Virus record (IMG/VR): IMGVR_UViG_3300027743_000099
Location: 1-20,821 of that record
Direction: 5' to 3' (one strand)
DNA: 20,821 nt
Origin: a virus
The translations under genes and the position numbers were made by a program. The notes below the pieces were generated by a model. That model was given only the letters and a program-made list of their open reading frames with translations. It was not told the origin of the DNA and made no database searches. Positions 3,061-20,821 of this stretch are shown here, in pieces; within the stretch, counting starts at the first letter, position 1, and every line of letters starts with the position of its first letter.

Positions 3061-3073
3061 TGACAAATGTCAC
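3060..3073. promoter_or_regulatory. Operator-like palindrome O1
   Basis: ATGACAAATGTCAC matches the consensus ATGACA-NN-TGTCAT at 11 of the 12 defined positions. It overlaps the first base of the -35 box of the minus-strand promoter, a typical place for a repressor or activator site. Confidence 0.5.
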
Positions 3074-3082
3074 ATATTTCAT

Positions 3083-3096
3083 ATGACATTCGTCAT
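3083..3096. promoter_or_regulatory. Operator-like palindrome O2
   Basis: ATGACATTCGTCAT differs from the consensus ATGACA-NN-TGTCAT at one base. Its centre is 23 bp from that of O1, about two helical turns, so two bound dimers could touch. Confidence 0.5.
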
Positions 3097-4516: not shown

Positions 4517-4554
4517 CCTCCCCCGAATTACTATACATTGGCTAGGAGCGACTG

Positions 4555-6709: not shown

Positions 6710-6730
6710 ATGACATTTGTCATGTATAAT
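6710..6730 (+). promoter_or_regulatory. Operator O3 and -10 box before the heptose isomerase
   Basis: The palindrome ATGACATTTGTCAT (6710-6723, perfect arms) sits directly before a perfect TATAAT (6725-6730). No good -35 lies 17 bp upstream, so this promoter may need an activator bound at the palindrome. The expected start (about 6737) would leave a leader of only about 10 nt beginning at the GGAG site, so the true start may differ. Confidence 0.5.
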
Positions 6731-6746: not shown

Positions 6747-7265
6747 ATGAGACAGTATCTGGCTGATACGGCGGAGGCGATTGGGCGCGTCGAGGTGGGG
6801 GAACTGGACAACGCCGTGAGGATCCTTCAGGAAGTACGCGACAACGGGAATGTGGTCTGGATCGTCGGAAATGGGGGCAGCGCCGCGACCGCCGAGCACT
6901 TTGCCAACGACCTGGTGAAGATGGCAGGCGTGCGGGCAATTGCGGTGCATTCCCTCACGCCCACCCTGCTTGCGTATGGGAACGATGAGGGCTGGGAGAC
7001 AGCCTGCCTCAGCATCCTGAACGTCATGAAGAAACCAGGAGATGCGCTGGTGGCAATCTCCTGCTCGGGGAAATCTCCTAACGTTGTCCTGGCTGCCATG
7101 AAGTTCCACCATAACCGCCTGATCGTCCTGACCGGCAATAAATACGACAGCCAGCTTGCTTCCATGGATGCAGGCGCCAAGATATTCGCGACAGACGAGG
7201 ATATCCGAATCCAGGAGGATGCGCACCTGGCCGCCTGTCATGCCATTGCAGGAGCTCTCAGATGA
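6747..7265 (+). CDS. gmhA: Phosphoheptose isomerase (sedoheptulose-7-phosphate isomerase), GmhA-like
   Basis: Predicted to convert sedoheptulose 7-phosphate to D-glycero-D-manno-heptose 7-phosphate, the first step to nucleotide-activated heptose. It is a single SIS domain of 172 aa (E. coli GmhA is 192). GNGGSA at 41-46, HFANDL with His51 and Asp55 (the usual Glu is replaced by Asp), SCSGKS at 105-110 and the signature IRIQEDAHLAACH with Gln156 and His160/His165 match GmhA, including its metal-binding positions. A longer TTG start at 6717 would lie inside the operator, so the ATG with GGAG upstream is chosen. It opens an operon that runs into the packaging genes and overlaps the next gene by 4 nt. 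A related SIS protein such as DiaA is less likely given the Gln/His signature. Confidence 0.85.
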   Translation: MRQYLADTAEAIGRVEVGELDNAVRILQEVRDNGNVVWIVGNGGSAATAEHFANDLVKMAGVRAIAVHSLTPTLLAYGNDEGWETACLSILNVMKKPGDALVAISCSGKSPNVVLAAMKFHHNRLIVLTGNKYDSQLASMDAGAKIFATDEDIRIQEDAHLAACHAIAGALR

Positions 7266-7603
7266 AAATCTACATTGCCGGCCCGTACACAAAAGGAGAC
7301 ACAGCCATGAATGTCCGCGCGTCCATCCATGCTCAGGACGCGATTGAGTCCATGGGTCACATGGCATACAACCCCATGCTCTCCCACTTCCAGCACCTGG
7401 TCATCCCCCATCGGGACGTGAACTACTGGTATGAGAAGGATATCAAGTGGCTGAAGGAATGCGATGCGCTCCTGCGGCTGGAAGGCGAAAGCCTGGGCGC
7501 AGATAGGGAGGTGATGATCGCCAGCGATCTGGGAATGCCGATCTACCATTCGGTTTTCGAGATACCGAAGGTCAGGGAGCCGGTTGCTGAGGCAGGCGAG
7601 TAA
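7262..7603 (+). CDS. DUF4406 / nucleoside 2-deoxyribosyltransferase-like protein
   Basis: Begins MKIYIAGPYTKGD and continues with a Rossmann-like pattern: GHMAYNPMLSHF (about 38-49), then DVNYWYEKDIKWLKECDALLRLEGESLGADRE and GMPIY. These are the hallmarks of the small DUF4406 branch of the nucleoside 2-deoxyribosyltransferase superfamily (113 aa is typical). Members bind nucleotides or sugar-nucleotide-like ligands; the reaction is mostly unproven. Glu80 in LEGES is at the place of the catalytic Glu of the family (inference). Translationally coupled to gmhA by ATGA overlap. Possible roles are nucleotide salvage or trimming during infection, or a step in the sugar pathway given its neighbour. 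Confidence 0.8.
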   Translation: MKIYIAGPYTKGDTAMNVRASIHAQDAIESMGHMAYNPMLSHFQHLVIPHRDVNYWYEKDIKWLKECDALLRLEGESLGADREVMIASDLGMPIYHSVFEIPKVREPVAEAGE

Positions 7604-7604
7604 T

Positions 7605-8372
7605 GTGGCCGCCAAATGTTCTGCCCTGCTCTATAACTGCCCGTCCTGCAAACGCCATTTCAGGAATTCCGAACGCGTACCCGCCTGCCCCGACTGTGCA
7701 GCCGACCTCCATTGTGGGAAGTGGGCCGTGCCTGGGTATAAGTTTTGTGAGGACCACGGGGGTCCTGCCCCATCCAGGAACTTCTACGGGAAAGGTAGGG
7801 GCATTGTGACCGGAGAGAATGGGAAGTTTGCCTTGACCCGCCTGGCTTCCAAGTACGTGGAGATGCAGAAGAATGGGGCTCTGCTCTCGAACCGCCACTC
7901 CATTGAGATCGTGCGGGAGCGCATTGCCGAACTGCTCGAACGCCTGGGGAACAACCAGTTCCCGGACCAGCTCGTAAAATTACAGGATTTGTGGGAAGAA
8001 TATAAACGCCTGGGAGAATCACTTGAAGGGATCGAAGTCAAAAAACAACTCGATGCGGCGTTCGAAGCCGTTTATCACGACTATATGGCGTGGAACCAGG
8101 TCTTTCTGGCAATGGAACTTGACTCCAAGATGGTGGAGCGCGAAGCGAAGATCGCGAAGGATCTCCACGCGATCCTGAGCGCCGAGGACGCCTACAAGCT
8201 GGTGGCAAAGGTCCAGGCGGCTGTGATCGTCTCGGTCAGCCAGGAGCCGGCCATCCCCGACAACGTGAAATCGCACTTATTGAAGAGGATAGAGTATGAG
8301 CTTACTAGGATCATTGGCGAAGGATCTGGTGAAGGGTCTGGGGGAAGCGTCGGAGAAGTTATCGACGCCTGA
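7605..8372 (+). CDS. Zinc-finger phage protein, probable terminase small-subunit-like
   Basis: Lies directly before the large terminase and overlaps it by 77 nt. GTG at 7605 is chosen because it follows the upstream stop by 1 nt; an in-frame TTG at 7584 is an alternative. The N-terminus has zinc-binding pairs CPSC (12-15) and CPDC (28-31), then C37, C48 and H51 before GGPAPSRNFYGKGRG, a pattern seen in small phage proteins next to terL. Residues 75-235 are long charged helices, probably for oligomerisation. The final 15-20 residues are Gly/Ser-rich (GEGSGEGSGGS) because they are read out of frame over the start of terL. The terminase-small role is inferred from position and architecture; helices plus zinc finger could also be a DNA-binding adaptor. 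Confidence 0.6.
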   Translation: MAAKCSALLYNCPSCKRHFRNSERVPACPDCAADLHCGKWAVPGYKFCEDHGGPAPSRNFYGKGRGIVTGENGKFALTRLASKYVEMQKNGALLSNRHSIEIVRERIAELLERLGNNQFPDQLVKLQDLWEEYKRLGESLEGIEVKKQLDAAFEAVYHDYMAWNQVFLAMELDSKMVEREAKIAKDLHAILSAEDAYKLVAKVQAAVIVSVSQEPAIPDNVKSHLLKRIEYELTRIIGEGSGEGSGGSVGEVIDA

Positions 8373-9807
8373 TCCCGTTGACTGGATCGAAAAGAACTTC
8401 TATATCCCTGAGACCAAAAACGACCCGATCCATCGCGGTCGTATTTTCCTTATGGATTACCAGAAGGATGCCATCCGCGAAGCTCTTTCCAGGGATGAGG
8501 ATGGGAATTATAAGTATTCGATCATTGTCTGGTCGGACATCAAGAAAAGCGCCAAGTCTACGATCGCCGCAGCGATCAACCTCTTTCGGGCGGAGTACAC
8601 GGATTTTGGTGAATTCTATGTGATCGCCAATGATCTGAAGCAAGCCGATTCCAGGGTGGCGATGTACCTGCGCCGAGCTCTCCAGTTGAATCCAAAATTC
8701 AGGAAGAAGTTTTCCGTAAGGGGATATCGCACCACTCACCCCGAGAACGGATCCTACATCGAGGCTATCCCCATTGACCCGAGCGGTGAAGCCGGGTCGA
8801 ATGCAGACATGATCACCTTCTCGGAGTTGTGGGGCGCCAACGAGGACGCCAAGCAGACCATGTGGGCCGAAATGACCCTCTCCCCTACCAAGGCAGGTCG
8901 GAGTTTCCGCTGGATCGAGAGTTACGCTGGATACACGGAAGAAAGCCTTCTATTATATTCGCTATACGCATTGGGCGCTTTACAGGGGAAAATGATATGG
9001 CCGGATAAACTCTACCCGGTGACGGGGGGAGAGCCTACACCCCTTGAATTGTACGTGAATGAGGAAGCTGGAATGCTGTGCCTGTGGAACACGCAGCCGA
9101 GATGCCCATGGCAAACCAAGAAATACTATCAGGGCGAAGAGAAGATTCTGCCCCCAAACGACTTTCTGCGGATGCACCGCAACCAGTGGGTGTCCTCTTC
9201 GGACACATTTATCCCCATGGAATGGTTCGATGCGTGCAGAAGGGCAAACGAGACCTGGCCAGAGATCGACAAAAAACGTCACCCGCACATTATATCATTA
9301 GATGCGGCCACTACGAACGACTGCTTCGGTTTATACATGGGTTGCAGGCACCCGGAGAACCCTTCTGATATCCTGACCCAGTACGCGCAGAGGTGGAAAC
9401 CCGTCAACGGGAAGATCGACTTTCAGGGAACAGAGGAGAATCCGGGACCCGAGAGGGTGTTGAGACGTTTGATCAGTGAGTACAACGTGGTGCAGGTGAC
9501 CTACGACCCGTTCCAGCTTCATGATATGGCGTCCAGGCTGAAGAAGGAAGGACTGGCGTGGTTCAAGCCGTTCAACCAGGGGCAGGACCGCCTGGTGGCC
9601 GACAGCCAGCTCCGGGATGTCATCCGAGATCGAAGGCTATGGCACCGCGGTGAGCCGGACCTGAGGGAACATATCCAGAACGCCAACGCCCAGATCGACC
9701 CGCAGGAGTCAAAGATCAGGCTCGTGAAGCGCGTAGAGAGCCTCAAGATCGATCTGGCGGTCTGTCTTTCGATGTGTACCCACAATTTGCTCTACTTGAA
9801 CCTGTAA
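8296..9807 (+). CDS. terL: Phage terminase large subunit
   Basis: ATP-driven motor and nuclease that packages and cuts phage DNA at the procapsid portal. The ATPase domain has a deviant Walker A, SDIKKSAKST (80-89, Ala replacing the usual Gly before Lys87), and Walker B MITFSELW (172-179) with catalytic Glu177. The C-terminal RNase H-like nuclease shows HIISLDAATTND (Asp336), VTYDPFQ (Asp404) and KIDLAVC (Asp486). At 503 aa it has a typical length. AAGAGGAT lies upstream of the ATG, within the end of the previous gene. A short hairpin follows at 9821-9840. Confidence 0.92.
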   Translation: MSLLGSLAKDLVKGLGEASEKLSTPDPVDWIEKNFYIPETKNDPIHRGRIFLMDYQKDAIREALSRDEDGNYKYSIIVWSDIKKSAKSTIAAAINLFRAEYTDFGEFYVIANDLKQADSRVAMYLRRALQLNPKFRKKFSVRGYRTTHPENGSYIEAIPIDPSGEAGSNADMITFSELWGANEDAKQTMWAEMTLSPTKAGRSFRWIESYAGYTEESLLLYSLYALGALQGKMIWPDKLYPVTGGEPTPLELYVNEEAGMLCLWNTQPRCPWQTKKYYQGEEKILPPNDFLRMHRNQWVSSSDTFIPMEWFDACRRANETWPEIDKKRHPHIISLDAATTNDCFGLYMGCRHPENPSDILTQYAQRWKPVNGKIDFQGTEENPGPERVLRRLISEYNVVQVTYDPFQLHDMASRLKKEGLAWFKPFNQGQDRLVADSQLRDVIRDRRLWHRGEPDLREHIQNANAQIDPQESKIRLVKRVESLKIDLAVCLSMCTHNLLYLNL

Positions 9808-9820
9808 GGTGATAAAATAA

Positions 9821-9840
9821 GGAGTGGTAGTCTCCACTCC
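9821..9840 (+). terminator. Weak terminator-like hairpin after terL
   Basis: GGAGTGG-TAGTCT-CCACTCC, a 7-bp stem, followed by a T-rich but interrupted tract (ATTTGTCCTATTCTTTTTCTT). It may attenuate rather than end transcription, since the following genes have no clear promoter of their own. Confidence 0.4.
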
Positions 9841-9872
9841 ATTTGTCCTATTCTTTTTCTTAGGAGGCTGCC

Positions 9873-10160
9873 ATGGCTGATTTCGTTCCGTTGACAGGGG
9901 AAACCCATCACTCCGTTGCTCTGGGCGCGGGGGCGTTGACCCTGAGTCTTCCACTTCACGCGCAAAAGATCATGATCCAGGCGTTGGCGCAGAACATCCG
10001 CTACACCCTGGAAGGCACCGCACCGGCTGCCGCCAGCGGTTTTCAGTTGAAAGCCGGGGATCCGCCGCGCGTCATTGAACTCACGGGTAACAACAGACTT
10101 GTCCTGAAAGTCATCCGCGAGACCAGCGGGGCGATCCTCGAGTACGAATACGGTGAATAG
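9873..10160 (+). CDS. Small beta-rich phage protein, probable structural protein (95 aa)
   Basis: Preceded by an excellent AGGAGG site. Starts MADFVPLTGETHHSVALGAG, with alternating hydrophobic strands throughout (ALTLSLPLHA, NIRYTLEGTA, RVIELTGNNRLVLKVI, GAILEYEYGE), so probably a small beta-sandwich. Location between terL and portal suggests a head decoration or cement protein or another virion component, but no family is recognised. Confidence 0.65.
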   Translation: MADFVPLTGETHHSVALGAGALTLSLPLHAQKIMIQALAQNIRYTLEGTAPAAASGFQLKAGDPPRVIELTGNNRLVLKVIRETSGAILEYEYGE

Positions 10161-10175
10161 GGAGATGAGGGAAGC

Positions 10176-10652
10176 ATGAAACACAAGAATTTTCGATCCG
10201 CAGTAATTACCCGCGAACTTCCGCCCAGGATGCAGAAGACCCCTAAGGGCATTCAGATGATTTGCCCGTTTTGCGTTCCTTCGCACTCGCTCGTCCCCGG
10301 GCAGGAATCGGTCTGCGGGACAATCGTGAAAGTCACAGCGGTGCAGACGATCATCCCCCAAAGGACCGTTTCTGACCGCGGCCTCCACTGCCTGAAGTGT
10401 GGAGAAGGCAGGGGGAAGATGGTGCGTTTTGGTGCCGGATTCGTCCACATCGAGGACTGCAAACCAGGCACGAAACTCCTGGCAGTACCCCCACCTCATT
10501 CGAAGTTTGCCGAACGCGTGTTCAAGATGAAGGACAGGCGAGTCAAAAACTGGCTTGAAAAACGCTATGGGAAAGCACAGAGCGTGGGCGAGGTTGACGG
10601 CGATGGAAACGAGACCGGGAAGGTTCTGAGCTACTTTTTCCTGAAGGTATAA
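10176..10652 (+). CDS. Zinc-ribbon hypothetical protein (158 aa)
   Basis: GAGGGAAG precedes the ATG. Cysteine pairs CPFC (30-33) and CLKCGEG (72-75), with C47 between, suggest a zinc ribbon in the first half. The second half is basic and helical (FKMKDRRVKNWLEKRYGKAQ). The gene ends 3 nt before portal. It may be a DNA-binding head or packaging accessory. Function unknown. Confidence 0.65.
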   Translation: MKHKNFRSAVITRELPPRMQKTPKGIQMICPFCVPSHSLVPGQESVCGTIVKVTAVQTIIPQRTVSDRGLHCLKCGEGRGKMVRFGAGFVHIEDCKPGTKLLAVPPPHSKFAERVFKMKDRRVKNWLEKRYGKAQSVGEVDGDGNETGKVLSYFFLKV

Positions 10653-10655
10653 AAA

Positions 10656-12110
10656 ATGGCAAATACCCCGAAACTTGTCCCCGATAGTCAGTTCCCGGAA
10701 CTGGCGCTGGAAGAGAGCATACAGAAGCCGCCCACCGCCAATCTGCTAGGCGGTGGTGGCATGGTCTTCACCTGGACGATTGCCAGCGCCGCCGATAGCA
10801 TCCTTCCGTGGGGCAGGAACGTGGCGGGGCGCGACAGGCAACTGCGCGACTTCTGGCCCACCGAGACGTACCTGGCAGGCGGATTGGCGAGTGTTTCCTT
10901 CCGCAACGCAACCCTGGACTGGGAGGTGCAGAACAGTTCGGAGCGCGTGGCGCAGGTAGAAACGGAAAAATTGAACTCTGCGATCGCCGGGGATACGTTC
11001 GGCTGGGTGCAGTTCATCGAGAAGTTCAGCCAGGATCTGTACACACAGGACAACGGGGCTTTTGTGGAGATCATTCGCGACCCTGGTCTGGATGCTAGTA
11101 GCAAGTTCAAGAACGAACGCGCTCCCTGCATTGGGATCGCCCACATGGATTCGAACAAGTGTATCCGCACAGGCGACCCGGAAACCCCGGTGCTCTACAC
11201 CGACCGCAATGGAAAAATTCATAAACTGAAGTGGTACCAGGTCATTGCCTTCTCGGATTACCCCAGTGCCATCGAGACCATGAATGGGGTTGGGTACTGC
11301 GCGGTGACGCGCGCCCTGCGCATGGCACAGATCGCGCGCTCGATCTTCATCTTCAAGGACGAGAAGATCAGCGGGCGGCACTTCAAGCAGATGCACTTTG
11401 TCTCGGGGGTTTCCAGGCAGGATATCAAGGACGAGATGGTGCGCGGACAGGAGGAAGCCAATAACTCCGGCATGATCCGATTTATGCTTCCAGCCATCCT
11501 CGCATCTCTGGACCCGGAGAAACCGGTCTCCACTGCCACGATCGATCTGGCAAGCCTGCCGGACGGGTTTAGTTTTGACGAGGAAATGAAGTGGTACATC
11601 TCCGGCTTGTCTCTGGCGTTCGGCGTGGATTATCAGGAGTTCGCTCCCCTGCCGGGCGGGAACATCGGGTCGGCTTCGCAGAGCATGATCCTGCACAGGA
11701 AGTCCAGCGGGAAGAGCCCGGCAGTCTTCATGCGGAAACTAACGGAGGGCTTCAAGAATTACGGGATCCTTTCGCGCGGCAGCACCCTGCGATTCAATGA
11801 CAAGGATGAGCAGGAGGAGCTCGAGCGCCAGGAAGTCCGCACGGCTGCCATGGAAGAAGTGGCGATCTCGGTCCGCTCCGGGATCCTTACACCGGACGCG
11901 GCACGCAAAGACCTGGTGGCGCGCGGGATCTATGACCAGAAGACTATAGAGGGTATTCCTGAGGATTACGGGAACGAGATCGTGGCGCCCAGTAAAAACC
12001 CCGTAGGGCAGACAGGCGGGAATACCATTCGCGAGGACGCGAACCGGAATACCACCGGCAAGGAAAAACAGAAGGCGGGGGCACGCCTGCGCAAGATGTT
12101 TGGTGGATAA
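10656..12110 (+). CDS. Phage portal protein
   Basis: Forms the dodecameric ring at one capsid vertex through which DNA enters and leaves and to which terminase and connectors dock. The 484-residue protein shows portal-like organisation: N-terminal arm; wing/clip regions with DNGAFVEIIRD (about 129-139) and KWYQVIAFSDYPSAIETMNG before the helical stem (ALRMAQIARSIFIFKDEK); the SGLSLAFGVDYQEFAPL stretch near 315-331; and a charged C-terminal helical crown ending with Gly-rich and basic tail sequence. Placement between terminase and protease is canonical. It overlaps the following ATG by 1 nt. Confidence 0.85.
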   Translation: MANTPKLVPDSQFPELALEESIQKPPTANLLGGGGMVFTWTIASAADSILPWGRNVAGRDRQLRDFWPTETYLAGGLASVSFRNATLDWEVQNSSERVAQVETEKLNSAIAGDTFGWVQFIEKFSQDLYTQDNGAFVEIIRDPGLDASSKFKNERAPCIGIAHMDSNKCIRTGDPETPVLYTDRNGKIHKLKWYQVIAFSDYPSAIETMNGVGYCAVTRALRMAQIARSIFIFKDEKISGRHFKQMHFVSGVSRQDIKDEMVRGQEEANNSGMIRFMLPAILASLDPEKPVSTATIDLASLPDGFSFDEEMKWYISGLSLAFGVDYQEFAPLPGGNIGSASQSMILHRKSSGKSPAVFMRKLTEGFKNYGILSRGSTLRFNDKDEQEELERQEVRTAAMEEVAISVRSGILTPDAARKDLVARGIYDQKTIEGIPEDYGNEIVAPSKNPVGQTGGNTIREDANRNTTGKEKQKAGARLRKMFGG

Positions 12111-12610
12111 TGGCTACCATTGGGGTAAAGCTGCGCGTGTTTGTTCCCAAAGAGGTGATGAACCTCGCGCGCGTGAACCAGGCTATCCAGCACGTCATGA
12201 TCCAGAAGACCACCCGGGAACTCAAGCGGGAATTTGAAAAGACAGTCTCCACCTGGGATCACAAGCCAAATTGGACAATGGAACACTACTTCGGCGTGCG
12301 GGTGCTGTGGGTCAAGGTTTTCACCTACTCCACCCAGTACCGCATTGTGAATGCGGGGGCAGCCCCCCACTTGATCCTTCCGCGCCGCGCAAAGATCCTC
12401 CGATTCCAGACGAAATATAAAGCCAAGACGCGCGCACGCCTGATCGGGAGTTTTGCGGGGGGAAAATCAGGGCCGTATATCTCCACTCCGGCAGTCTATC
12501 ATCCCGGGTTTGAGGCGCGCGATTTTGACATAACCATTGCCGAGGAGTATGCCGAGACCTTCCATGACGACATCCAGGAAGCGATCAAGGATGGCATAAT
12601 TCATGCTTGA
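12110..12610 (+). CDS. HK97 gp10-like head-tail connector / minor head protein
   Basis: 166 aa, starting at a TAATG overlap with portal. The stretch TQYRIVNAGAAPHLILPRRA followed by KILRF, then ISTPAVYHPGFEARDFD, is the signature of the HK97 gp10-like family (GxxPHxIxP ... HPGxxxRxF), whose members act at the head-tail joint as stopper or tail-completion proteins. An N-terminal helix runs from about 15 to 45. It sits next to portal and ahead of the protease, slightly earlier than usual for this family. Confidence 0.75.
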   Translation: MATIGVKLRVFVPKEVMNLARVNQAIQHVMIQKTTRELKREFEKTVSTWDHKPNWTMEHYFGVRVLWVKVFTYSTQYRIVNAGAAPHLILPRRAKILRFQTKYKAKTRARLIGSFAGGKSGPYISTPAVYHPGFEARDFDITIAEEYAETFHDDIQEAIKDGIIHA

Positions 12611-12631
12611 CGCCTGTTTTTTTATCCCATA

Positions 12632-12662
12632 GTGTCATTTGTCATATATCCTGTGTTATAAT
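12632..12662 (+). promoter_or_regulatory. Promoter with degenerate operator O4 before the protease gene
   Basis: GTGTCATTTGTCAT (12632-12645) matches the ATGACA-NN-TGTCAT consensus at 10 of 12 defined positions. An extended -10, TGTTATAAT (TATAAT at 12657-12662), follows, with TGTCAT 18 bp upstream as a weak -35. It would separate protease and capsid expression from the upstream packaging genes. Confidence 0.5.
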
Positions 12663-12686
12663 TTCCTGTGACCTGTGGAGGCTAGG

Positions 12687-14390
12687 ATGGCTAAGAAACA
12701 CAAAGACATAACGACGCGCGCAGAGCGCCAGGCTTCCTACGCTGTAAAACAAAAGGCGCGGGAGAAAGAACTTCAGGATAAGGCGGAGGAAACCCCTGAG
12801 GTTGAATTGATTCAGGATGAACCCATCGAGAAGGATATGGGCGAAATGTATTACATGGGTCCTACTTCCTTTTCGGAACTGGATCAATTGAAGGAAACGC
12901 GCGAGCAGGCCGCCCAGGTACGGAGTGTCACCTACGACACACAGGATCTGGTCTGGAACATCCTCAACCACCCCATGATGCCCGCGGAAGAGAAAGCTAA
13001 AGCCATCCAAAGCGTTGGCAGCGAATTCGGCGCGCGCGTCACAAAAGCCGCCAAGCCCATCAAGAAAGACCTTGATATCCTGGTGATCGAAGCAATCCTG
13101 GCAGCCGACAAGCGCAATTCCAAACCCCTTGAATTTATCGGTGATTTTATTTCCAAAGCCAAACTTACAGCCGGCGCGGAGAACGCGCTGGATGACAGTC
13201 AGTTTGCGCTCGTGCGAAGTGACGGGGAAAAGAAGGAACGCAAGTACCCGATCCACGATAAAGCCCACGTGAGAAACGCACTGGCACGCGCCGCCCAGAT
13301 GATGGCAGAGGGCGGAGAAGCTGCCGCGGACGCCAAGGCTGCCATGCCGAAGATCCGCGCGGCTGCCAAGAAGATGGGCATCGAGATGTCCATGGAGAAG
13401 GACAACAACGCCATCCTGATTGAAAAGGATGCGAACGGGGATTGGCGCTGGATCGGCTGGGTCTCCAACAACTTCATCGACTGGGATGGAGACATCATCG
13501 CGGAAGATGCCCACAAGGAATACGTGGGCTGGCTGGACAAGAACCCGGATATGTACCCGGCTTCAACCACCTGGCACATGCCTGAAATGGTACGAAAGAA
13601 CGCTGTCGATTTTGCGACCTACGAGAGCGGGTTCCTGATCATGAGCGGCAAACTCGAGGAAAGCGAAGCTGAATCTCTACTGAAAGCCAAATCCCTGACC
13701 GACCTCGGGATGTCGCATGGAACTTTTGCTCTGGCGCGCGATCCGAACGACACGCGTGTAATTACCAAATACCGGATGTATGAATGCTCGGACCTGCCGC
13801 TCGAGAACGCGGCCAATCCGTTTACAGATTTTGAAATCCTCACCAAGGAGGCTGACATGGATAAGACGAAATATCTGGCCACGATTTTGGGCAGTGAAGA
13901 GAAGGCAAACGCCTTCATCCAGAAGACCGGCTTGAAGAAGGAAGCCCTGGAAGCTGCCGGAATCGAGAATAAGGAAAAACAGGATGAAACACCTGAAGTA
14001 CCTGCCGTTCCCGAGACCCCGGTTGCAGAAGCGGCGCCCGCGCCCGCAGCCACTCCCGAACTGAAGGTGATCTTCGAAGCCATCGAAAAGCAGTTCGGCA
14101 TGAAGGACCTGAGTGAAGCCTTTGCCCAGCTTCAGGAAACCGCCGAGAAGGTCCCCCTTCTGGAAGCCCTCGTGAAAGACCTGCAGGGCAGCAAGGAAGA
14201 GGCACTGGTGGAGATGCTCACTCCCCCAGCCGAGCGGTATTCCTGGATGAACAAAGCGCGCGCTTCGGCGTCGGACAAGAACGTGCCCGATGACGAGGAA
14301 GCCGAAAAACTCAAGAAACAAGCTCCCGGCGTACCGGAAGGCTACTGGCTCTCACAGGCCACGAACTCCACGCCGGTGCTAACGCAATAA
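12687..14390 (+). CDS. Prohead protease fused to scaffold-like regions
   Basis: 567 aa from the ATG at 12687, with GGAGG ahead (an in-frame GTG at 12675 lies too near the ribosome site). Residues 1-160 are charged and helical. About 171-235 carry a repeat-like domain (KYPIHDKAHVRNALARAAQ, MPKIRAAAKKMGIEM) known from phage head proteins. About 240-385 form an HK97-type serine protease domain: WVSNNFIDWDGDIIAEDA, then TWHMPEM with His297 and GMSHGTFALA with Ser343 as likely catalytic residues. The C-terminus has a Pro/Ala-rich linker (430-460) and coiled-coil segments resembling a scaffold (delta domain). It would cleave and remove scaffold and itself during capsid maturation. It precedes the major capsid gene, as expected. 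Confidence 0.8.
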   Translation: MAKKHKDITTRAERQASYAVKQKAREKELQDKAEETPEVELIQDEPIEKDMGEMYYMGPTSFSELDQLKETREQAAQVRSVTYDTQDLVWNILNHPMMPAEEKAKAIQSVGSEFGARVTKAAKPIKKDLDILVIEAILAADKRNSKPLEFIGDFISKAKLTAGAENALDDSQFALVRSDGEKKERKYPIHDKAHVRNALARAAQMMAEGGEAAADAKAAMPKIRAAAKKMGIEMSMEKDNNAILIEKDANGDWRWIGWVSNNFIDWDGDIIAEDAHKEYVGWLDKNPDMYPASTTWHMPEMVRKNAVDFATYESGFLIMSGKLEESEAESLLKAKSLTDLGMSHGTFALARDPNDTRVITKYRMYECSDLPLENAANPFTDFEILTKEADMDKTKYLATILGSEEKANAFIQKTGLKKEALEAAGIENKEKQDETPEVPAVPETPVAEAAPAPAATPELKVIFEAIEKQFGMKDLSEAFAQLQETAEKVPLLEALVKDLQGSKEEALVEMLTPPAERYSWMNKARASASDKNVPDDEEAEKLKKQAPGVPEGYWLSQATNSTPVLTQ

Positions 14391-14414
14391 AGCCCCTAAT
14401 CAGGAGGTGCAATC

Positions 14415-15938
14415 ATGAAACCCAATGTTATTGACGGAACAGTTGATCCCGCACAGATCACACAGGCTCTTATCGAGATCCTGTCCAAAGGTCTTGGCGG
14501 GGAGAATATCCAGAAGACCCAGACGGCCGGAAACCCGATTGGGCCTTACATCCACGGTCCGGGCGGCTTGTTCGGCATCCGCGGCCTTTCGCAGGACGTG
14601 ATCTCGACCCATACCCAGTTCACCGGGAGTCTGGGCGAGTTGCTGCCCATCCAGGGCAGCCGGGACACGAATCCGCTCTTCCCCTACATCACTGGCTACC
14701 TGCGCAGTGATCAGCAGGAGAAGAACCTGGTCTGCGATGACCCCCCGGAGGCGAACCATTTCAAGACCTGTATCCAGACCACACAGTTTGGGCGCAAGGA
14801 ATTCAAGACCCGCCAGGCGGAGATCAACCGCATCGGGCAGCGCCTGAACCGGGGTGAGTTCATGGATCTGCGGATCGTGAACAGTCCCCTGGTCCCGCAG
14901 ATGGCAGGCTTGATGGGCAACATCTACGGCAACGGACTCAGCCAGCAGAACCAGATCCTCGCCGGGCGCGAGATGGTGGCGCGGCTGGTGGAAGTGGTTG
15001 TGGCGTTCCAACGCTGGTTCTGCCCCCACATCTTTACCGGAAACCCCTCCAACAACAGCGCGGGTGGCGGGTACAAGGAATTCCCCGGGCTGGATCTCCT
15101 GATCTCGACCACAAAAGTGGACGTTGAGACCGGGACATCCTGCCCATCGCTGTACAGCGATATAAAGGATTTCAATTACCAAAACGTGTCTTCCAACGCC
15201 GATCCCAACATCGTTCGCACGTTGACCACAATGTACCGCATCCTGACCCGCAAAGCTGTCCAGCAAGGCATGGCGCCTGTTGATCTGCGGATTGTCATGC
15301 GCGAGCCTCTGTTCTACGAGCTCACCCGAGCCTGGCCCTGCCAGTACAACACGGACGGCTGCGCAGTCGGACAGAGCAACACCCAGGAAGTCAATATGAA
15401 CGACGCGGTGCGCTTCCGGGACGACCTGCGCAACAATCGCTACCTCCTGATCGATGGTCGTAAGGTACCCGTTATCCTCGATGACTGCATCATGGAAGAG
15501 ACCACCTCGGATAACGATGCCATCCCGCTCGGTGGGTTCTCCTCGGACATCTACTTTGTGCCGTTCAGCATCATGGGCGGGTCGTACCGCACACTCTACA
15601 TGGAATACTACGACTACCGCAACGATGTCCTGCCGGCCGCCGGTGACGCCCATGCCCTGCCGACCTTCTTCTGGTCAGACAACGGCGTGGCGCTGTGGAG
15701 CCTCAAGGCACCGGATAACTGGTGTATCGAGGTCATCTCCAAGATCGAACCCCGCCTGATCCTGCGTACCCCGCAGCTTGCGGGACGCCTGCAGAACGTG
15801 GTCTACATCCCGCTGCAGCACACGGATGACCCGCTGCCCAGCCAGGACTACCACGTCAATGGTGGCGTTACGACCGGACGGCCGTTCCCCAGCCCATTCA
15901 GTGAATGGAACTTGGGCGGACCCGGCGTAGGAGCCTAG
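14415..15938 (+). CDS. Major capsid protein (probable HK97 fold)
   Basis: The 507-residue product follows the protease gene with its own strong AGGAGG site, as expected for the most abundant virion protein, and is ended by a strong terminator. It starts MKPNVIDGTVDPAQITQALI. Features consistent with a capsid shell protein are the N-terminal helix, the long hydrophilic central part, NNRYLLIDGRKVPVILDDCI near residues 335-360 (a beta-rich P-domain-like stretch) and the many aromatic residues. HK97 fold is inferred from order and companion genes rather than a diagnostic motif. Confidence 0.75.
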   Translation: MKPNVIDGTVDPAQITQALIEILSKGLGGENIQKTQTAGNPIGPYIHGPGGLFGIRGLSQDVISTHTQFTGSLGELLPIQGSRDTNPLFPYITGYLRSDQQEKNLVCDDPPEANHFKTCIQTTQFGRKEFKTRQAEINRIGQRLNRGEFMDLRIVNSPLVPQMAGLMGNIYGNGLSQQNQILAGREMVARLVEVVVAFQRWFCPHIFTGNPSNNSAGGGYKEFPGLDLLISTTKVDVETGTSCPSLYSDIKDFNYQNVSSNADPNIVRTLTTMYRILTRKAVQQGMAPVDLRIVMREPLFYELTRAWPCQYNTDGCAVGQSNTQEVNMNDAVRFRDDLRNNRYLLIDGRKVPVILDDCIMEETTSDNDAIPLGGFSSDIYFVPFSIMGGSYRTLYMEYYDYRNDVLPAAGDAHALPTFFWSDNGVALWSLKAPDNWCIEVISKIEPRLILRTPQLAGRLQNVVYIPLQHTDDPLPSQDYHVNGGVTTGRPFPSPFSEWNLGGPGVGA

Positions 15939-15958
15939 TCCAAAAAGTGTAACCTTTT

Positions 15959-15990
15959 GGGAGTGGCGCAGACCCGCCACTCCCTTTTCT
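15959..15990 (+). terminator. Strong rho-independent terminator after the capsid gene
   Basis: Perfect 10-bp stem GGGAGTGGCG (15959-15968) / CGCCACTCCC (15975-15984), 6-nt loop, then TTTTCTCTT. It closes the head operon 20 nt past the capsid stop codon. Confidence 0.9.
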
Positions 15991-15995
15991 CTTGC

Positions 15996-16103
15996 CTTTT
16001 CGGGTGTACAATTGAGCCGTAAAGGGATAGCATGGTTAGGCCAGCCCTGCGAACGTGACGCTTCCCCACCCTCCTTTTACGGTTCTACTGTGCGCCCGAA
16101 AGG
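15996..16103 (+). ncRNA. Structured RNA-like element before small membrane gene
   Basis: Closing stem CTTTTCGGGTG (15996-16006) / CGCCCGAAAGG (16093-16103), 11 pairs including two G-U; symmetric 10 x 10 internal loop; second stem CCGTAAAGGG (16017-16026) / CCTTTTACGG (16073-16082), 10 pairs including one G-U; a 46-nt apical region. The rest of this 237-nt gap, 16104-16175, shows nothing beyond a ribosome site. It may be a leader controlling the next two genes or a free RNA. Confidence 0.45.
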
Positions 16104-16175
16104 GCAGGCTTTCAAAATTGCAATGCAGTGACAATGTAACTCTGTTTGAATGAAATCGTCTGGGAAGAAGGAAAG

Positions 16176-16319
16176 ATGGTGGCTCAAAAGCCGGGAAGCG
16201 GTAATTATTGCCTAAGAGTTGTAATTGTGGGGTTTTTTATTGTGACGATGTTAGCGTATTTGTTGTACTATCTGTATCGTATTGGAATCATTCGTGATTT
16301 ATTGAGGTTTCTTCCATAG
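16176..16319 (+). CDS. Small single-span membrane protein (47 aa)
   Basis: ATG at 16176, TAG at 16317-16319; AAGGAAAG ribosome site. A polar N-terminus (MVAQKPGSGNYCLR) is followed by one long hydrophobic helix (about 15-34, VVIVGFFIVTMLAYLLYYLY) and a basic amphipathic tail RIGIIRDLLRFLP. The next gene's ribosome site overlaps the stop, so they are coupled. Size and topology fit many phage membrane peptides, including holin-like or superinfection-exclusion proteins, but there is no direct evidence for any role. Confidence 0.55.
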   Translation: MVAQKPGSGNYCLRVVIVGFFIVTMLAYLLYYLYRIGIIRDLLRFLP

Positions 16320-16327
16320 GAGTCGTC

Positions 16328-16615
16328 ATGGACAAGAAAATGGGACCCGCAACGCTTCAAAGATTGAAAGCCATCCGAGAAAACCTCGAGAGCAAGATCG
16401 AGGAAGCCGGCCGCGGCCTGGGGATACCCGAGGACAAGCCGATGGTCATGGAAATCCTGCGGATCGAGCGCCAGCAACAGTGGGAAGAAGAGAACCGCCA
16501 GTGGAGAAAAGAACTGGATGAGAAGAACCGCGCTGCGGTATATGACAAATGGCACTTTCTGCGAAATATCGTCCGTTTTATCGACGGACTTCTGGACAAG
16601 CGTTTGGGAAAGTGA
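16328..16615 (+). CDS. Charged helical hypothetical protein (95 aa)
   Basis: AGGAG precedes the ATG, 8 nt past the previous stop. Starts MDKKMGPATLQRLKAIRENL. Almost wholly helical with heptad-like charge (IRENLESKIEEAGRG; RIERQQQWEEENRQWRKELD), so probably a coiled coil. It ends in the weakly hydrophobic helix NIVRFIDGLLDKRLGK. Could act with the adjacent membrane peptide. Function unknown. Confidence 0.65.
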   Translation: MDKKMGPATLQRLKAIRENLESKIEEAGRGLGIPEDKPMVMEILRIERQQQWEEENRQWRKELDEKNRAAVYDKWHFLRNIVRFIDGLLDKRLGK

Positions 16616-16635
16616 TAGACTGATTTACAACTTAC

Positions 16636-16731
16636 ACCGCCCCTGATGCGTCACGGGCGGGACATGTGACTAATGCGTTAGCCACTTACCACGTCTCCAG
16701 AATGGAGGCCGGTGAGTGGCTTTTTTGTTTT
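16636..16731 (+). terminator. Leader hairpins and strong terminator before the sugar operon
   Basis: Three hairpins in a row: CCGCCC/GGGCGG (about 16637-16661), CTAA-TGCG-TTAG (about 16670-16681), and the terminator GCCACTTACC (16681-16690) / GGTGAGTGGC (16711-16720, one G-U) with an inner CTCC/GGAG hairpin and TTTTTTGTTTT. The T-run ends 12 nt before the ATG of the dehydratase and one base before its ribosome site. Either it isolates the operon, or it is an attenuator; the second stem shares its last base with the terminator stem. Confidence 0.8.
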
Positions 16732-16743
16732 CGGAGGAAGCCG

Positions 16744-17679
16744 ATGGACATAAGGGAAGCAAACATTTTCTGCACGGGCGGTGCAGGAACCCTGGGTCAC
16801 GCAATCGCGCGGCGCAGGCAGAAGGACGGGTGGAAAGGCAGGTTCACAGTTTATTCCAGACATACTCATATCCTTGAACAGATGAAGCGGGAGTTCCCGG
16901 ACGTTGCGATCGTCCAGGGTGACATCCGCGACACCCTGACCCTCTATCACGCCATGGTCGGGCATGACTGCGTGATCCATGCCGGGGCTGTGAAGGTCAT
17001 CCCGGTCAGCGAATTCCAGTCCATCGACACCATTCAGGTCAACGTGATGGGCTCGTTGAACGTCTGTGATGCGGCGGTGCGCGCGGGAGTAAAGGACGTG
17101 CTGGGTATTTCCACAGACAAAGCCTGTCACGCCGCGAACGCCTACGGCGCGACCAAGTACCTGATGGAGAAGATTTTCCAGGAATTCGCACGCGCCGGGA
17201 CCGAAACCAAATTTCACCTGGTTCGCTATGGGAATGTTCTGGAATCCAACGGTTCGGTGGTGGAGGCTTGGAAGGCGGCTGTCGCGCGTAAGGAGCCGAT
17301 CAAGATCACAAACCCGAACATGACCCGCTTCTGGATCTCCCCTGCTCAGGCGGTGGACTATGTGATCGACGCGTTCCGCTATGACTCCGGGTGCATCTAC
17401 ATCCCGAAAATGTCGGCGCTCCCGATAGGAAAACTTGCCAAATATACCCTGGGAGAAGAGAACTACACATCCGCGATCATCCCCCTCAGACCCGGCGAGA
17501 AGATCCATGAATGCCTCCTCACAAGCGAGGAAAGCTGGTTCGCCCTGTCGGAGGGGAAATTCTTCCTGCTCTACCCGACCACCCATAAGAAATTCGGTGC
17601 ATCCAAACAACCCTATACCAGCGATGTCGCGCCTGAGTTGACGCGCGAGGAGCTGGAGGAGTTATTGAAAAATGCCTAA
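16744..17679 (+). CDS. NDP-sugar 4,6-dehydratase-like SDR enzyme (CapD/PseB family)
   Basis: Extended short-chain dehydrogenase of the family that includes UDP-GlcNAc 4,6-dehydratases (PseB, FlaA1, CapD). It would use bound NADP to make a 4-keto-6-deoxy nucleotide sugar in the cytoplasm. Rossmann motif TGGAGTLG (11-18), STDKA (123-127) and catalytic YGATK (134-138), then RYGNVLESNGSV and MTRFWIS, which bind substrate in this family. Length 311 aa, like PseB. The ATG at 16744 with GGAGGA is chosen over an upstream start that would read through the terminator. Actual substrate unknown; given the heptose genes, a heptose nucleotide is possible but unproved. It overlaps the next gene by 8 nt. Confidence 0.85.
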   Translation: MDIREANIFCTGGAGTLGHAIARRRQKDGWKGRFTVYSRHTHILEQMKREFPDVAIVQGDIRDTLTLYHAMVGHDCVIHAGAVKVIPVSEFQSIDTIQVNVMGSLNVCDAAVRAGVKDVLGISTDKACHAANAYGATKYLMEKIFQEFARAGTETKFHLVRYGNVLESNGSVVEAWKAAVARKEPIKITNPNMTRFWISPAQAVDYVIDAFRYDSGCIYIPKMSALPIGKLAKYTLGEENYTSAIIPLRPGEKIHECLLTSEESWFALSEGKFFLLYPTTHKKFGASKQPYTSDVAPELTREELEELLKNA

Positions 17680-17893
17680 ACAAAAAATCTTTGAAGTTGT
17701 CAGGTTGGAGATCGAAAAACTGGAATTGAAGCCAGGGCAGATGCTGTGTGTAAAATTCCCGGAAAACCACACTCTTGGGGATATTCGTGATTTTGTGGAA
17801 ACGTGTAAAGAAGTCTTTCCTGAAAAAGGTATAAGCGTGATGGTTTTTCGGGGGGATGTGGAGATAGCAATTATTGAGAGGAAAAATGGATGA
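17672..17893 (+). CDS. Small hypothetical protein in sugar operon (73 aa)
   Basis: Starts MPKQKIFEVVRLEIEKLELK, overlapping the dehydratase by 8 nt, and overlaps the next gene by 8 nt. Predicted as strand-helix-strand, with VVRLEIEKLELKPGQMLCVK, TLGDIRDFVETCKEVFPEKG and ISVMVFRGDVEIAII. Similar short proteins occur in phage gene arrays. No domain recognised. Position suggests a role with the neighbouring sugar enzymes, but this is only context. Confidence 0.65.
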   Translation: MPKQKIFEVVRLEIEKLELKPGQMLCVKFPENHTLGDIRDFVETCKEVFPEKGISVMVFRGDVEIAIIERKNG

Positions 17894-18572
17894 ATATCCC
17901 ATCCTTGCCGCGGTTATGGTGACCTACAAGCGCACCGAACTGGCGCTGCGCACCATTCGGGGATTGGGAAACTTCCTTGCCTATCCCCATGAGAAAGTAG
18001 CCTGGTATGTAGCCGATGACGGCAGCCCGCGCGAGCACGTGGACGCCATCCTGAAGGAGATCGTGATCAACGGGTTCACCATTATCGGGTACCATAACGA
18101 AAAATTTGCACCCGGCACATACAACGCTGGGAAAGGCTGGAACCTCGGGCTGAGATCCGCCCACGAACGCTCCCCATTTGTCCTGTGGATGGAGGACGAC
18201 TGGGAACTGCGCCGGCCTCTGGCACTCTCGCCTTACCTGCAGCTTCTCCACGATCGGGAAGACATAGGCATGATCAGGCTCGGTCATCTGGCAGTTGGTT
18301 CGCAGGTGGAGATCGTCGGACACAGCGGGATCCATTACCTGAATTACCTGCGCAACACCGCCTACGCCTACTCGGGAAATCCCCATATTCGGCATATTCG
18401 CTTTTCGGAAGCGTGTGGACCGTTTGCAGAAGACCGTAACCCGGGAGAAATCGAACTTCACCAGGATCACAACTTCCGAACCAACCCGAACGTTCCCGCC
18501 ATCTGGCGGCCGGCAGACATCCCGGGCTGGGGCATCTTTGCCCACCTGGGGACGGAGAAGTCTTTCCAATGA
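17886..18572 (+). CDS. GT-A / family-2-like glycosyltransferase
   Basis: The first 110 residues have the GT-A pattern: AVMVTYKRTELALRTIRGL (9-27), nucleotide-binding DDGS (44-47), and WMEDDWEL (101-108), where EDD serves as the DxD-like metal and sugar-nucleotide site. Total 229 aa, small for GT2 but complete. The ATG at 17886 has GAGAGGAAA just upstream; a TTG at 17874 is within that site. Predicted to be cytoplasmic, transferring a sugar from an activated donor to a glycan or protein acceptor. The acceptor is unknown. ATGA overlap with the next gene. Confidence 0.75.
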   Translation: MDEYPILAAVMVTYKRTELALRTIRGLGNFLAYPHEKVAWYVADDGSPREHVDAILKEIVINGFTIIGYHNEKFAPGTYNAGKGWNLGLRSAHERSPFVLWMEDDWELRRPLALSPYLQLLHDREDIGMIRLGHLAVGSQVEIVGHSGIHYLNYLRNTAYAYSGNPHIRHIRFSEACGPFAEDRNPGEIELHQDHNFRTNPNVPAIWRPADIPGWGIFAHLGTEKSFQ

Positions 18573-19099
18573 CCACTTTCCTTGGAATTCCAATGTCGCA
18601 GGACTATAACGATTTCCTGATCTGGGAAACGTTCTTCGAGCAAAACCCCCTCAAAACATTCATTGAGCTGGGGACAGGCAACGGCGGGATGTCCACCTTC
18701 TTTGCATTGCAGTGCGCAAAACGCGGGATCGACTTCAATACCTACGACCACCAGCAGTGGTTCGACTACTTCACCGACCCGTTTTCCAAATTTCTCGGAT
18801 TGCCCCAGCGGTTCCATCGGATCGACCTCTTCTCCGCAGCCGGTGCGATGGAGATTGCCCGCGTGATTCGGGATTCCCCGAAACCCCTGGCGATCTTCTT
18901 TGATGACGGGAACAAGCCGCGCGAGTGGGAAATCTTTGCGCCTCTCACCTCCCCCGGAGACTTCTGTATCGTCCACGACTGGGACACAGAGTTCTTCGCC
19001 AAGGATATCGGGGATGTGAAAGTAGAGCGCATCCTGCCAGAGCTGTGCGACGCGCGTCCTGCCGGATGGAAAGCCATGTGGTTCAAGAGGATTGAATGA
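18569..19099 (+). CDS. CmcI-like SAM-dependent methyltransferase
   Basis: 176 aa. A SAM-binding loop, FIELGTGNGGMSTFFAL (31-47), is followed by FFDDGNKPREWE (110-121) and CIVHDWDTEFF (133-143), the acidic and His-containing pattern of the CmcI / rhamnosyl O-methyltransferase group, which often methylate sugar hydroxyls and use a metal ion. In this operon it may methylate the phage-encoded glycan. Start overlaps the glycosyltransferase stop by 4 nt; end overlaps the next gene by 4 nt. Confidence 0.75.
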   Translation: MTTFLGIPMSQDYNDFLIWETFFEQNPLKTFIELGTGNGGMSTFFALQCAKRGIDFNTYDHQQWFDYFTDPFSKFLGLPQRFHRIDLFSAAGAMEIARVIRDSPKPLAIFFDDGNKPREWEIFAPLTSPGDFCIVHDWDTEFFAKDIGDVKVERILPELCDARPAGWKAMWFKRIE

Positions 19100-19677
19100 G
19101 CGTCCTGTATGACGGCGAGGAGCGCGAGACCTGGATGAACGGGCTGGGCGAGATGGATAAATATAACATAAAGCACATCCTGGCGATCTTCGCGCTCCTG
19201 GGTATCCCTGAAAGCTACATGGATGCCGGGTGCGGGACCGGGGTCATGGTGCGCACTGCCCAGAAGTTGGGAGTACGCGCTTATGGGCTGGATCAACTGG
19301 TGGAGGATAGCTGGGGCGAGGGGTTTTATCACGTCAACCTGGTCGATAAGTTCGCACTCCCCGAGCCTGTAGATATCGTGACTTCCTTCGAAGTAGCCGA
19401 GCATATCCACGAAAGTGCCCACGCAACCCTGTGCGACACCCTGGCAAGCAACCTGAAAATGGGAGCAGACCACCACTTGATTTTCTCCGCCGCGCGCCCT
19501 GGACAGGCCGGCACCGGGCATATCTCCTGTAAACCCGCCGAATACTGGCATAACGAATTCATCCTGCGCGGTCTCCATTACGATGGATACCTGACCCTGC
19601 GCTTGGCGCATTTGTTCTCCAACATCGAGAGTCCCCTGAATTATATGTGGGACAACTTGATTTGCTTTACGAGGTGA
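19096..19677 (+). CDS. Class I SAM-dependent methyltransferase
   Basis: 193 aa with motif I MDAGCGTGVMVRTA (42-55), GLDQL, the post-motif VTSFEVAEHI (about 99-108) and GTGHISCKPAEYWHNEF, a substrate-side pattern common in the Methyltransf_23/11-type enzymes of polysaccharide gene clusters. It may methylate a sugar of the phage glycan, possibly at a different position from the CmcI-like enzyme. Translationally coupled upstream; the next ATG follows by 1 nt. Confidence 0.8.
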   Translation: MSVLYDGEERETWMNGLGEMDKYNIKHILAIFALLGIPESYMDAGCGTGVMVRTAQKLGVRAYGLDQLVEDSWGEGFYHVNLVDKFALPEPVDIVTSFEVAEHIHESAHATLCDTLASNLKMGADHHLIFSAARPGQAGTGHISCKPAEYWHNEFILRGLHYDGYLTLRLAHLFSNIESPLNYMWDNLICFTR

Positions 19678-19678
19678 A

Positions 19679-20485
19679 ATGAAAGTCTCTATTGCCGATT
19701 CATTGTTCCTGCAATACGGGAAGACCGCCAAACTCGGGGGAGGAAACAAGGTCGTTCCTCCCACTCATTTCGATTGGGAATTGACGGATCCTGAAACCGC
19801 GCGGTTCGTTACCGATAGCCACCTGCAATTCGTGGAAGGTCCGGGCAAGGTGGCGTTCCTGCTGGAGACGTTCTTTCTGCACCCCGAGAATTACCTGACA
19901 GCCCTGCAGAAACCCTTCGATTACGTCCTGACCCACAACTCCTATTTTGCCAAACATAAGGGCTGGCTGTGGTATCCGCATGGCGGGTCGTTCGTGGACT
20001 TCGCTGACTGGAAAGTCCATGAGAAGAGCAGGAATGTCTCTATTCTGCTCTCCCCCAAACAACAGTTATGGGGCCACAAGAAATTCCACGAGGTAGTTGA
20101 GAAGTTCGGGGACAAGCTGGATGTCTATGGTTTGGATGGTTACGTGGACAAACTGACCGCCCTGGCTCCCTACCGCTTCGCGGTGATCGTGGAAGCCGAG
20201 CAGACCCATGATTTCTTCTCTGAGAAACTGATCGATTGCTTTGCGGTCGGGACGATCCCCATTTACCTGGGATGCCCGAATATTGACGATTTCTTTGACA
20301 CTCGAGGGATATTCTGGCCTGAAAATTTTGAGCAGATTTCCAAAGCTATTGACTTGGCAGATTCTTACGGCTATGAAATGCGCTTGGAATCGGTTCGTTA
20401 CAACCTGGAACGCGCCAAGCAGTACCGCATCCCCGAGGACTGGATTTATGACCACTACCCATTTCTTTTCGAGGAAAAGTCATGA
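19679..20485 (+). CDS. GT10-type (alpha-1,3-fucosyltransferase-like) glycosyltransferase
   Basis: 268 aa. The C-terminal half carries the GT10 signature: [20 protein letters not shown] (165-184) followed by [13 protein letters not shown] (186-198), matching the family's YxFxxxxENSxxxDYxTEK...GxxPxxxG pattern, with Glu182 and Lys183 as the donor-nucleotide binding pair. GT10 enzymes use a GDP-activated sugar, normally GDP-fucose; the heptose kinase next door belongs to a pathway that ends in GDP-heptose, so the donor could be GDP-heptose here (inference). The N-terminal half is less conserved. GAGGTGAA precedes the ATG. It overlaps the next gene by 4 nt. Confidence 0.8.
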
Positions 20486-20821
20486 TCATCTCGAAAACCC
20501 CTCTCCGGCTCTCTCTCTTCGGCGGCGGCACGGACTTGCCCGAGTTCTTCGCCCAGTCCACCGGCGCGGTCGTGAGCTTCGCAATCAATAAATATATCTA
20601 CGTGTCTGTGAATGAAAAATTTGACGGGAGAACGCGCGTCTCCTACTCCAAGACCGAGATGGTGGATAACCCCAAAGACCTGGAACACGACCTGGTACGG
20701 GAGACGCTCAGATACTTTGGTCTGAGAGGGTTGGAGATCACATCCATTTCAGATATCCCCGGTGAAGGCAGCGGACTGGGAAGCTCCTCTGCCTTCACTG
20801 TGGGGTTGGTGACCGCCCTGG
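20482..20821 (+). CDS. hddA: D-glycero-alpha-D-manno-heptose 7-phosphate kinase, HddA-like (partial)
   Basis: A GHMP-family kinase predicted to phosphorylate heptose 7-phosphate at carbon 1. The 113 codons visible before the window ends begin [20 protein letters not shown], typical of HddA, and contain the ATP-binding [18 protein letters not shown] (91-108). The C-terminal two thirds lie outside. It follows step 1 (gmhA-like, 6747) of the same pathway; the phosphatase (gmhB) and guanylyltransferase (hddC) may lie further right. The start overlaps the GT10 stop (ATGA). Confidence 0.85.

Follow-up and report, generated by a model that had tools for sequence, protein, structure and literature searches.

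The stretch of DNA analysed here (the window) is a 20,821-base IMG/VR viral fragment that carries two heptose-type genes far apart from each other: gmhA, encoding a GmhA-like isomerase, opens the packaging unit, and hddA, encoding an HddA-like kinase, lies in a sugar operon and is cut off by the end of the contig. The same layout is kept in a clade of related uncultured phages (records designated by G numbers below), and we consider it probable (about 0.6) that these phages encode the first two committed steps of nucleotide-heptose synthesis, with the isomerase in the packaging unit and the kinase in a separate sugar unit. The genes that define this layout are:

6747-7265, plus strand: gmhA, a GmhA-like SIS isomerase of the H-D-E-H metal-site subfamily, opening the packaging unit (Pfam, alignment and model)
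7584-8372, plus strand: putative small terminase, by its position between gmhA and TerL; also after gmhA in G001, G002, G005, G006, G027 and G028
8296-9807, plus strand: terminase large subunit, TerL (PF20441, 4.2e-9; tblastn match to a Streptomyces phage TerL)
14415-15938, plus strand: putative major capsid protein (position, and 61-88% identity in close relatives; no family match and no PHROG match)
20482-20821, plus strand: hddA, an HddA-like GHMP heptose-phosphate kinase, N-terminal 113 amino acids, truncated by the contig end (PF00288, NF049969, phrog_34407, PDB 4n3o)

Translation of gmhA was assigned to the ATG at 6747, with the Shine-Dalgarno sequence GGCGGAGG; a longer form starting at TTG 6717 was rejected because it falls within the promoter. 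The product matched the Pfam family SIS_2 (PF13580, 5.5e-15), scored 52-64 bits with several GmhA profile models and retrieved GmhA chains in a PDB search (4e-14). Its AlphaFold model, built on 20 relatives, was confident throughout (predicted local distance difference test, pLDDT, 97.7) and had the GmhA-type SIS fold, with a Z score of 24.8 against the GmhA structure 5i01 (root-mean-square deviation 1.7 over 169 residues). Together with the SIS_2 match and the position of the gene before the terminase genes, this structure prediction, which the first-pass annotation of the window had proposed, bore out its claim that a GmhA-like isomerase heads the packaging operon. Against a DiaA structure the same model gave Z 23.9, so close to the GmhA value that the fold alone cannot separate the two. 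DiaA identity was rejected on other grounds, since the DiaA model NF008138 gave 33 bits against a cut-off of 352 and the metal-site positions, which are S/Q/N in DiaA (S65, N180), are D/E/H in the window isomerase. With the curated equivalog model TIGR00441 the protein scored 58 bits, below the cut-off of 209 bits, which none of the 30 viral records passed.

The four zinc ligands of Burkholderia pseudomallei GmhA (H64, E68, Q175 and H183) are invariant in all GmhA orthologues, and mutating any of the four lowers activity (PMC5705639); the Mycobacterium tuberculosis GDP-pathway enzyme likewise has E66 and Q173 (PMC7705670). Instead of this H-E-Q-H set, the window isomerase and every aligned viral relative, including Caulobacter phage Cr30, have H, D, E and H at the metal-site positions (H51, D55, E157 and H165 of the window protein, invariant in the alignment). 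Bacterial GmhA (Escherichia coli gmhA; B. pseudomallei 2X3Y) and the phage proteins thus share the SIS fold, the helix register and two metal ligands (H61 and H180 in E. coli numbering), but throughout the phage set E65 is replaced by D and Q172 by E, and the phage proteins form a separate clade in the tree. The earlier statement that both enzymes carry their signature residues therefore holds for the kinase and only by half for the isomerase.

Bacterial and archaeal genomes were scanned for similarity to the phage proteins, and of the 80 best loci so picked, 75, spread over many phyla, had the H-D-E-H site. Of these 75 bacterial loci, 28 had an HddA-like gene within ~4 kb, 27 of them on the same strand; only HddA counts were used from this survey, as the local GmhB model apparently also caught HddC-type proteins. 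In the tree, the H-D-E-H proteins stood apart from a long supported branch that joined DiaA, E. coli GmhA and an archaeal H-E-Q-H protein. As judged from the alignment and the tree, the window isomerase is neither a canonical GmhA nor a DiaA, but a member of a distinct bacterial and viral subfamily. Comparison with GmhA and DiaA, which had been suggested as a check, gave a mixed answer: the isomerase is not part of canonical GmhA, itself grouped with DiaA in the tree, yet its subfamily is often found beside HddA in bacteria, and this proximity is the main evidence that H-D-E-H proteins would act on heptose 7-phosphate. The product need not be the manno epimer; an altro product is conceivable by analogy with HygP, since an isomerase in such a pathway can yield the altro epimer (PMC10948575). 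The H-D-E-H signature marks a large SIS subfamily that occurs in many bacterial phyla, often by HddA, and is easily assayed; we found no characterised member. A Streptomyces hygroscopicus H-D-E-H member (L146) was considered as HygP and no link is claimed, its neighbours (a glycogen-synthase-like glycosyltransferase, a transporter and a C45 acyltransferase) showing no aminoglycoside cluster.

The kinase fragment matched PF00288 (3.6e-7), phrog_34407 (6e-27) and the HddA model NF049969 (43 bits, 3.3e-11), and its top PDB match was HddA (4n3o, 2e-8). Its homologue in G001, 88% identical across the shared part, is complete (324 amino acids) and has both the N and C GHMP domains (PF00288 and PF08544), the window copy showing the N domain only. 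The full G001 kinase scored 151 bits with the HddA model versus 72 bits with fucokinase, the next family, and matched HddA structures at 4e-37 versus 5e-13 for fucokinase; it did not reach the NF049969 equivalog cut-off of 600 bits. Fucokinase, mevalonate kinase and galactokinase were rejected, all scoring much below HddA. An HddA-like GHMP kinase in the sugar operon, as originally annotated, was thereby confirmed, and the complete enzyme proved nearest to HddA rather than to another GHMP kinase such as fucokinase, a point on which the annotation had been left dependent.

Related viral contigs were retrieved with the two proteins as queries and then searched for both families. The gap between gmhA and hddA measures 13.4 kb in the window, so that the claimed separation of ~14 kb was right as to distant genes and slightly too large as to distance. 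In the other four clade records with both genes the gap is 17.4 kb (G001), 14.4 kb (G002), 23.1 kb (G005) and 17.2 kb (G006), whereas 18 viral records outside the clade that hold both genes have them 0.1-3.4 kb apart. Directly after gmhA come the terminase genes, in the window as in the six relatives listed above, and in G029 gmhA precedes a TerL match; identity among the terminase-linked isomerases goes down to 38%. These isomerases form a single supported clade in the tree (9 rows, 100/99), which fits one old placement before the terminase. The clade hddA comes after the putative capsid gene, a short-chain dehydrogenase/reductase (SDR) gene and a GT2 glycosyltransferase gene. G001, G005 and G006 (~62 kb) each carry both gmhA and hddA, and a second isomerase was not found by family search in the long clade contigs. 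The split of isomerase and kinase is therefore real and kept across the clade (5 of 5 both-gene records, 13-23 kb), and this uncultured phage clade differs in its stable gmhA/hddA split from the other both-gene viruses compared.

Outside that layout, G007 (L008, 6798-13346) has an unsplit hddA-nucleotidyltransferase-gmhA block between TerL and the portal gene. This block was considered as the ancestor of the split and set aside; its isomerase falls outside the window clade in the tree.

Several sequence elements suggest how the two genes are distributed over transcription units:

6668-6693, plus strand: intrinsic-terminator-like hairpin with an 11-bp stem, just upstream of the gmhA promoter
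6711-6723, plus strand: operator-like palindrome TGACATTTGTCA(T), directly adjoining the -10 element of gmhA; an exact copy of a repeated element, with one change in G001
6725-6730, plus strand: TATAAT -10 element before gmhA, kept with its flanks in G001
12633-12645, plus strand: second operator-like site, before putative prohead/capsid genes, an exact TGNCATTTGTCAT followed by TATAAT; orthologous G001 site at 32780
15959-15984, plus strand: strong intrinsic terminator (10-bp stem and T run), 21 bases past the putative capsid gene

G001 keeps the gmhA promoter region TGACATTTGTCATGTATAATTAGGGCGGAGG, its palindrome differing by a single change. Four exact copies of TGNCATTTGTCAT are present in the window versus 0.01 expected from shuffles, at 3060-3072 (in a divergent control region, where the repeat was noted over 3060-3095), 6711-6723 (gmhA), 12633-12645 (prohead/capsid) and 16542-16554 (minus strand). 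G001 has sites at apparently corresponding places, at 19332 (control region), 23338 (gmhA, one change) and 32780 (capsid), and another at 52435; none of the window and G001 sites stands in sense orientation before the sugar operon. G002 and G006 have different palindromes at the equivalent position upstream of gmhA, and a -10 element comes after each. This putative operator supports the action of one regulator on gmhA and the capsid genes, and not on the sugar operon.

Different hairpins follow the putative capsid gene at the same place in G001, G004, G005, G008 and G029 (with the window, six of the nine genomes examined), while no counterpart of the hairpin before gmhA was found in relatives. 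A terminator scan of the window returned 19 candidates versus 15.7 by chance, and because this total is near chance we relied only on the terminator conserved in position; a sigma-70 scan returned 5 promoters versus 7.7 in shuffles and missed the gmhA promoter. The evidence supports the terminator at 15959-15984 as the predicted end of the gmhA-containing unit, dividing gmhA from hddA transcription. The terminator after the capsid gene and a gmhA promoter with its own operator-like site agree with the earlier proposal that isomerase and kinase belong to separate (predicted) transcription units, and support control of the two genes independently of each other.

The linkage of gmhA to terminase genes, and an operator-like element that recurs before the putative prohead/capsid genes and not in sense before the sugar operon, also favour a reading in which isomerase and kinase are functionally unrelated, the SIS protein taking part in the packaging or early programme as a DiaA-like partner, whose fold it shares, or as another sugar-phosphate isomerase. 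We regard this as rather unlikely, since the metal-site residues and the model score depart from DiaA as described above, the same isomerase subfamily adjoins HddA in bacteria and in other viruses, and both genes are present in all three ~62 kb relatives.

The two genes had been assigned to consecutive steps of the GDP-heptose pathway. Two consecutive heptose-activation steps remain our reading, but the assignment to the GDP pathway specifically is not supported. When the proposed check for gmhB and hddC homologues was run on the clade relatives, neither was found: HddC-type PF00483 was not detected in the clade (it is present in only 2 of 31 records, both outside the clade), nor did the GmhB-type phosphatase models (TIGR01656, TIGR01662) match anything in the 61-63 kb contigs G001, G005 and G006 or in the clade's shorter ones, absences that are provisional, as the clade contigs are linear records of unknown completeness. 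The positive control G013 was recovered by both phosphatase models, and other viruses with gmhA and hddA do have GmhB-type genes.

A cytidylyltransferase-like gene is present in 20 of the 31 viral records. In three relatives a nucleotidyltransferase adjoins hddA, overlapping the kinase start in G001, following the kinase in G005 and fused to a cREC (cyclic-phosphate processing receiver) domain in G006. Its best curated match in G001 and G005 was RfaE domain II (TIGR02199; 61 and 81 bits versus a cut-off of 181.5), which is a heptose 1-phosphate adenylyltransferase; the expected HxGH motif reads HTGH in G001 and HPGY in G005 and G006. The clade apparently combines a kinase of the HddA type with a nucleotidyltransferase of the HldC type, leaving the phosphatase step to the host. 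It shares the isomerase and the GHMP kinase with the GDP-heptose pathway (GmhA-HddA-GmhB-HddC), but has no detected GmhB or HddC and an RfaE2/HldC-like nucleotidyltransferase beside the kinase. With the ADP-heptose pathway (GmhA-HldE, or HldA/HldC, then GmhB-HldD) it shares the RfaE2/HldC-like nucleotidyltransferase and an SDR that in G001 is partly HldD-like (TIGR02197, 98 bits), but its kinase is of the GHMP (HddA) and not the PfkB (HldA) type. Since GmhB and HddC were not found and an RfaE2/HldC-like enzyme lies by the kinase, the product is more likely another NDP (nucleoside diphosphate)-heptose than the GDP type, presumably of ADP or CDP type, with the host supplying the phosphatase.

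That the GDP-heptose pathway is the actual route we judge improbable. HddA is the kinase of that pathway, many bacterial loci of the same isomerase subfamily have GmhB/HddC-type genes by HddA (counted with a model that seems to mix both families), and two other viral hddA records carry PF00483; on the other side, PF00483, TIGR01656 and TIGR01662 matched nothing in the clade contigs searched, although the two phosphatase models found the control, and the nucleotidyltransferase adjoining hddA is of a different family.

The remaining genes of the packaging unit and the sugar operon are:

7262-7603, plus strand: DUF4406/nucleoside 2-deoxyribosyltransferase-like gene (PF14359, 1.2e-8; phrog_355, 4e-17), with a 4-base overlap with the gmhA stop
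10656-12110, plus strand: portal protein (phrog_146, 4.9e-6)
16666-17679, plus strand: nucleotide-sugar SDR, PseB/FnlA-like, with Tyr in YGATK (PF02719, 4e-62; PseB 209 bits versus a cut-off of 408)
17874-18572, plus strand: GT2-like glycosyltransferase (PF00535, 5e-5), kept before hddA in relatives
18569-19099, plus strand: possible methyltransferase, weak RMNT_CmcI match (PF04989, 0.0017, under cut-off)
19096-19677, plus strand: S-adenosylmethionine-dependent methyltransferase (PF13489, 1.9e-8)
19679-20485, plus strand: GT10 (fucosyltransferase)-like glycosyltransferase (PF00852, 8e-4, under cut-off)

The GT10-like gene has a homologue in G008 (49% identity) with a likewise weak GT10 match. 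The Tyr in YGATK of the window SDR is also present in five relatives. Dehydratases of the 5-inverting type acting on UDP-N-acetylglucosamine carry Met at that position, so that the window SDR may act on a different nucleotide sugar.

In the reading we favour, the SIS isomerase would convert sedoheptulose 7-phosphate into aldoheptose 7-phosphate, the GHMP kinase would then phosphorylate C1, and a host GmhB phosphatase would remove the 7-phosphate. The RfaE2/HldC-like nucleotidyltransferase, found by the kinase in relatives, would charge the sugar to NDP-heptose. Tailoring of the sugar and its transfer to a surface glycan of phage or host would fall to the sugar-operon SDR, methyltransferases and glycosyltransferases, the virion and the host envelope both being conceivable targets. 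As the leading gene of the packaging/capsid unit, gmhA would be read from a promoter of its own that bears the operator-like site, and the kinase and sugar genes would form a separate unit past the terminator. A further elaboration seems to us doubtful: in it, the HddA-type kinase and the RfaE2-like enzyme together form a hybrid pathway to an NDP-heptose peculiar to the phage, and the operator common to gmhA and the capsid genes couples isomerisation to capsid synthesis, with virions glycosylated in the course of their production.

Because the substrate, sedoheptulose 7-phosphate, is a pentose-phosphate intermediate and a nucleoside 2-deoxyribosyltransferase-like gene overlaps gmhA, the two genes might instead divert this sugar from other host metabolism, with activated heptose as a by-product. 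This is very improbable: the kinase gene has glycosyltransferase, methyltransferase and SDR genes as its operon neighbours, relatives have a large GT4/GT2 protein, and loss of a ribose precursor would seem to hinder phage DNA synthesis.

Some findings weigh against a nucleotide-heptose pathway. Two of the four ligands described as fully conserved in GmhA orthologues are altered (E to D and Q to E), and mutations at all four reduce activity (PMC5705639). The isomerase, kinase and nucleotidyltransferase scores are all far under the curated equivalog cut-offs, GmhB was not found in the clade, the nucleotidyltransferases of G005 and G006 have HPGY in place of HxGH, and the window itself stops inside the kinase and contains no nucleotidyltransferase.

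Heptose genes have been reported as viral auxiliary genes (PMC9611531, PMC10653327, PMC11671562), and phage gmhA/hddA pairs are already known. Caulobacter phage Cr30 (KF301602) has an annotated phosphoheptose isomerase (AGS80891) and D,D-heptose 7-phosphate kinase (AGS80893); as in the window clade, the isomerase is of the H-D-E-H type and the kinase HddA-like, by a GT2 gene and a UDP-glucose 4-epimerase gene. Cr30 shows about 33% identity to the window clade and is arranged differently: its two genes lie within 0.2 kb as a single block, and the 10.5 kb region inspected has no annotated packaging genes. A related kinase also occurs in Synechococcus phage Bellamy, close to a nucleotidyl transferase and to epimerases. 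As far as the literature compared shows, four features appear to be new: a gmhA/hddA split that is conserved, an isomerase promoter bearing an operator-like site, an enzyme set of hybrid type, and the H-D-E-H signature. Viral heptose genes are usually catalogued singly as auxiliary lipopolysaccharide genes; here a whole phage clade opens its packaging unit with the gene for the presumed committed step and keeps the others in a sugar operon, with regulatory sites open to testing.

Further features were noted around these genes. Just upstream of the packaging unit, at 3542-6036 of the window, are two adjacent DNA methyltransferase-like genes (cytosine-5 type and N4/N6 type), identified from sequence only. 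In G009 (L010, contig 121718-122639) two TAA codons interrupt an HddA-like kinase gene, and a GmhB-like match close by is also broken, so that the cassette would be either decayed or recoded. In five clade relatives (L002:10985-11452, L006 ~10995-11300, L007:10965-11819, L005:11371-11817 and L009:6926-7495) the gene after the kinase encodes a cREC domain, and in G004 (L005:9346-10014) an HNH/His-Me endonuclease-like open reading frame lies directly before the kinase and may be a mobile element inserted into the sugar operon.

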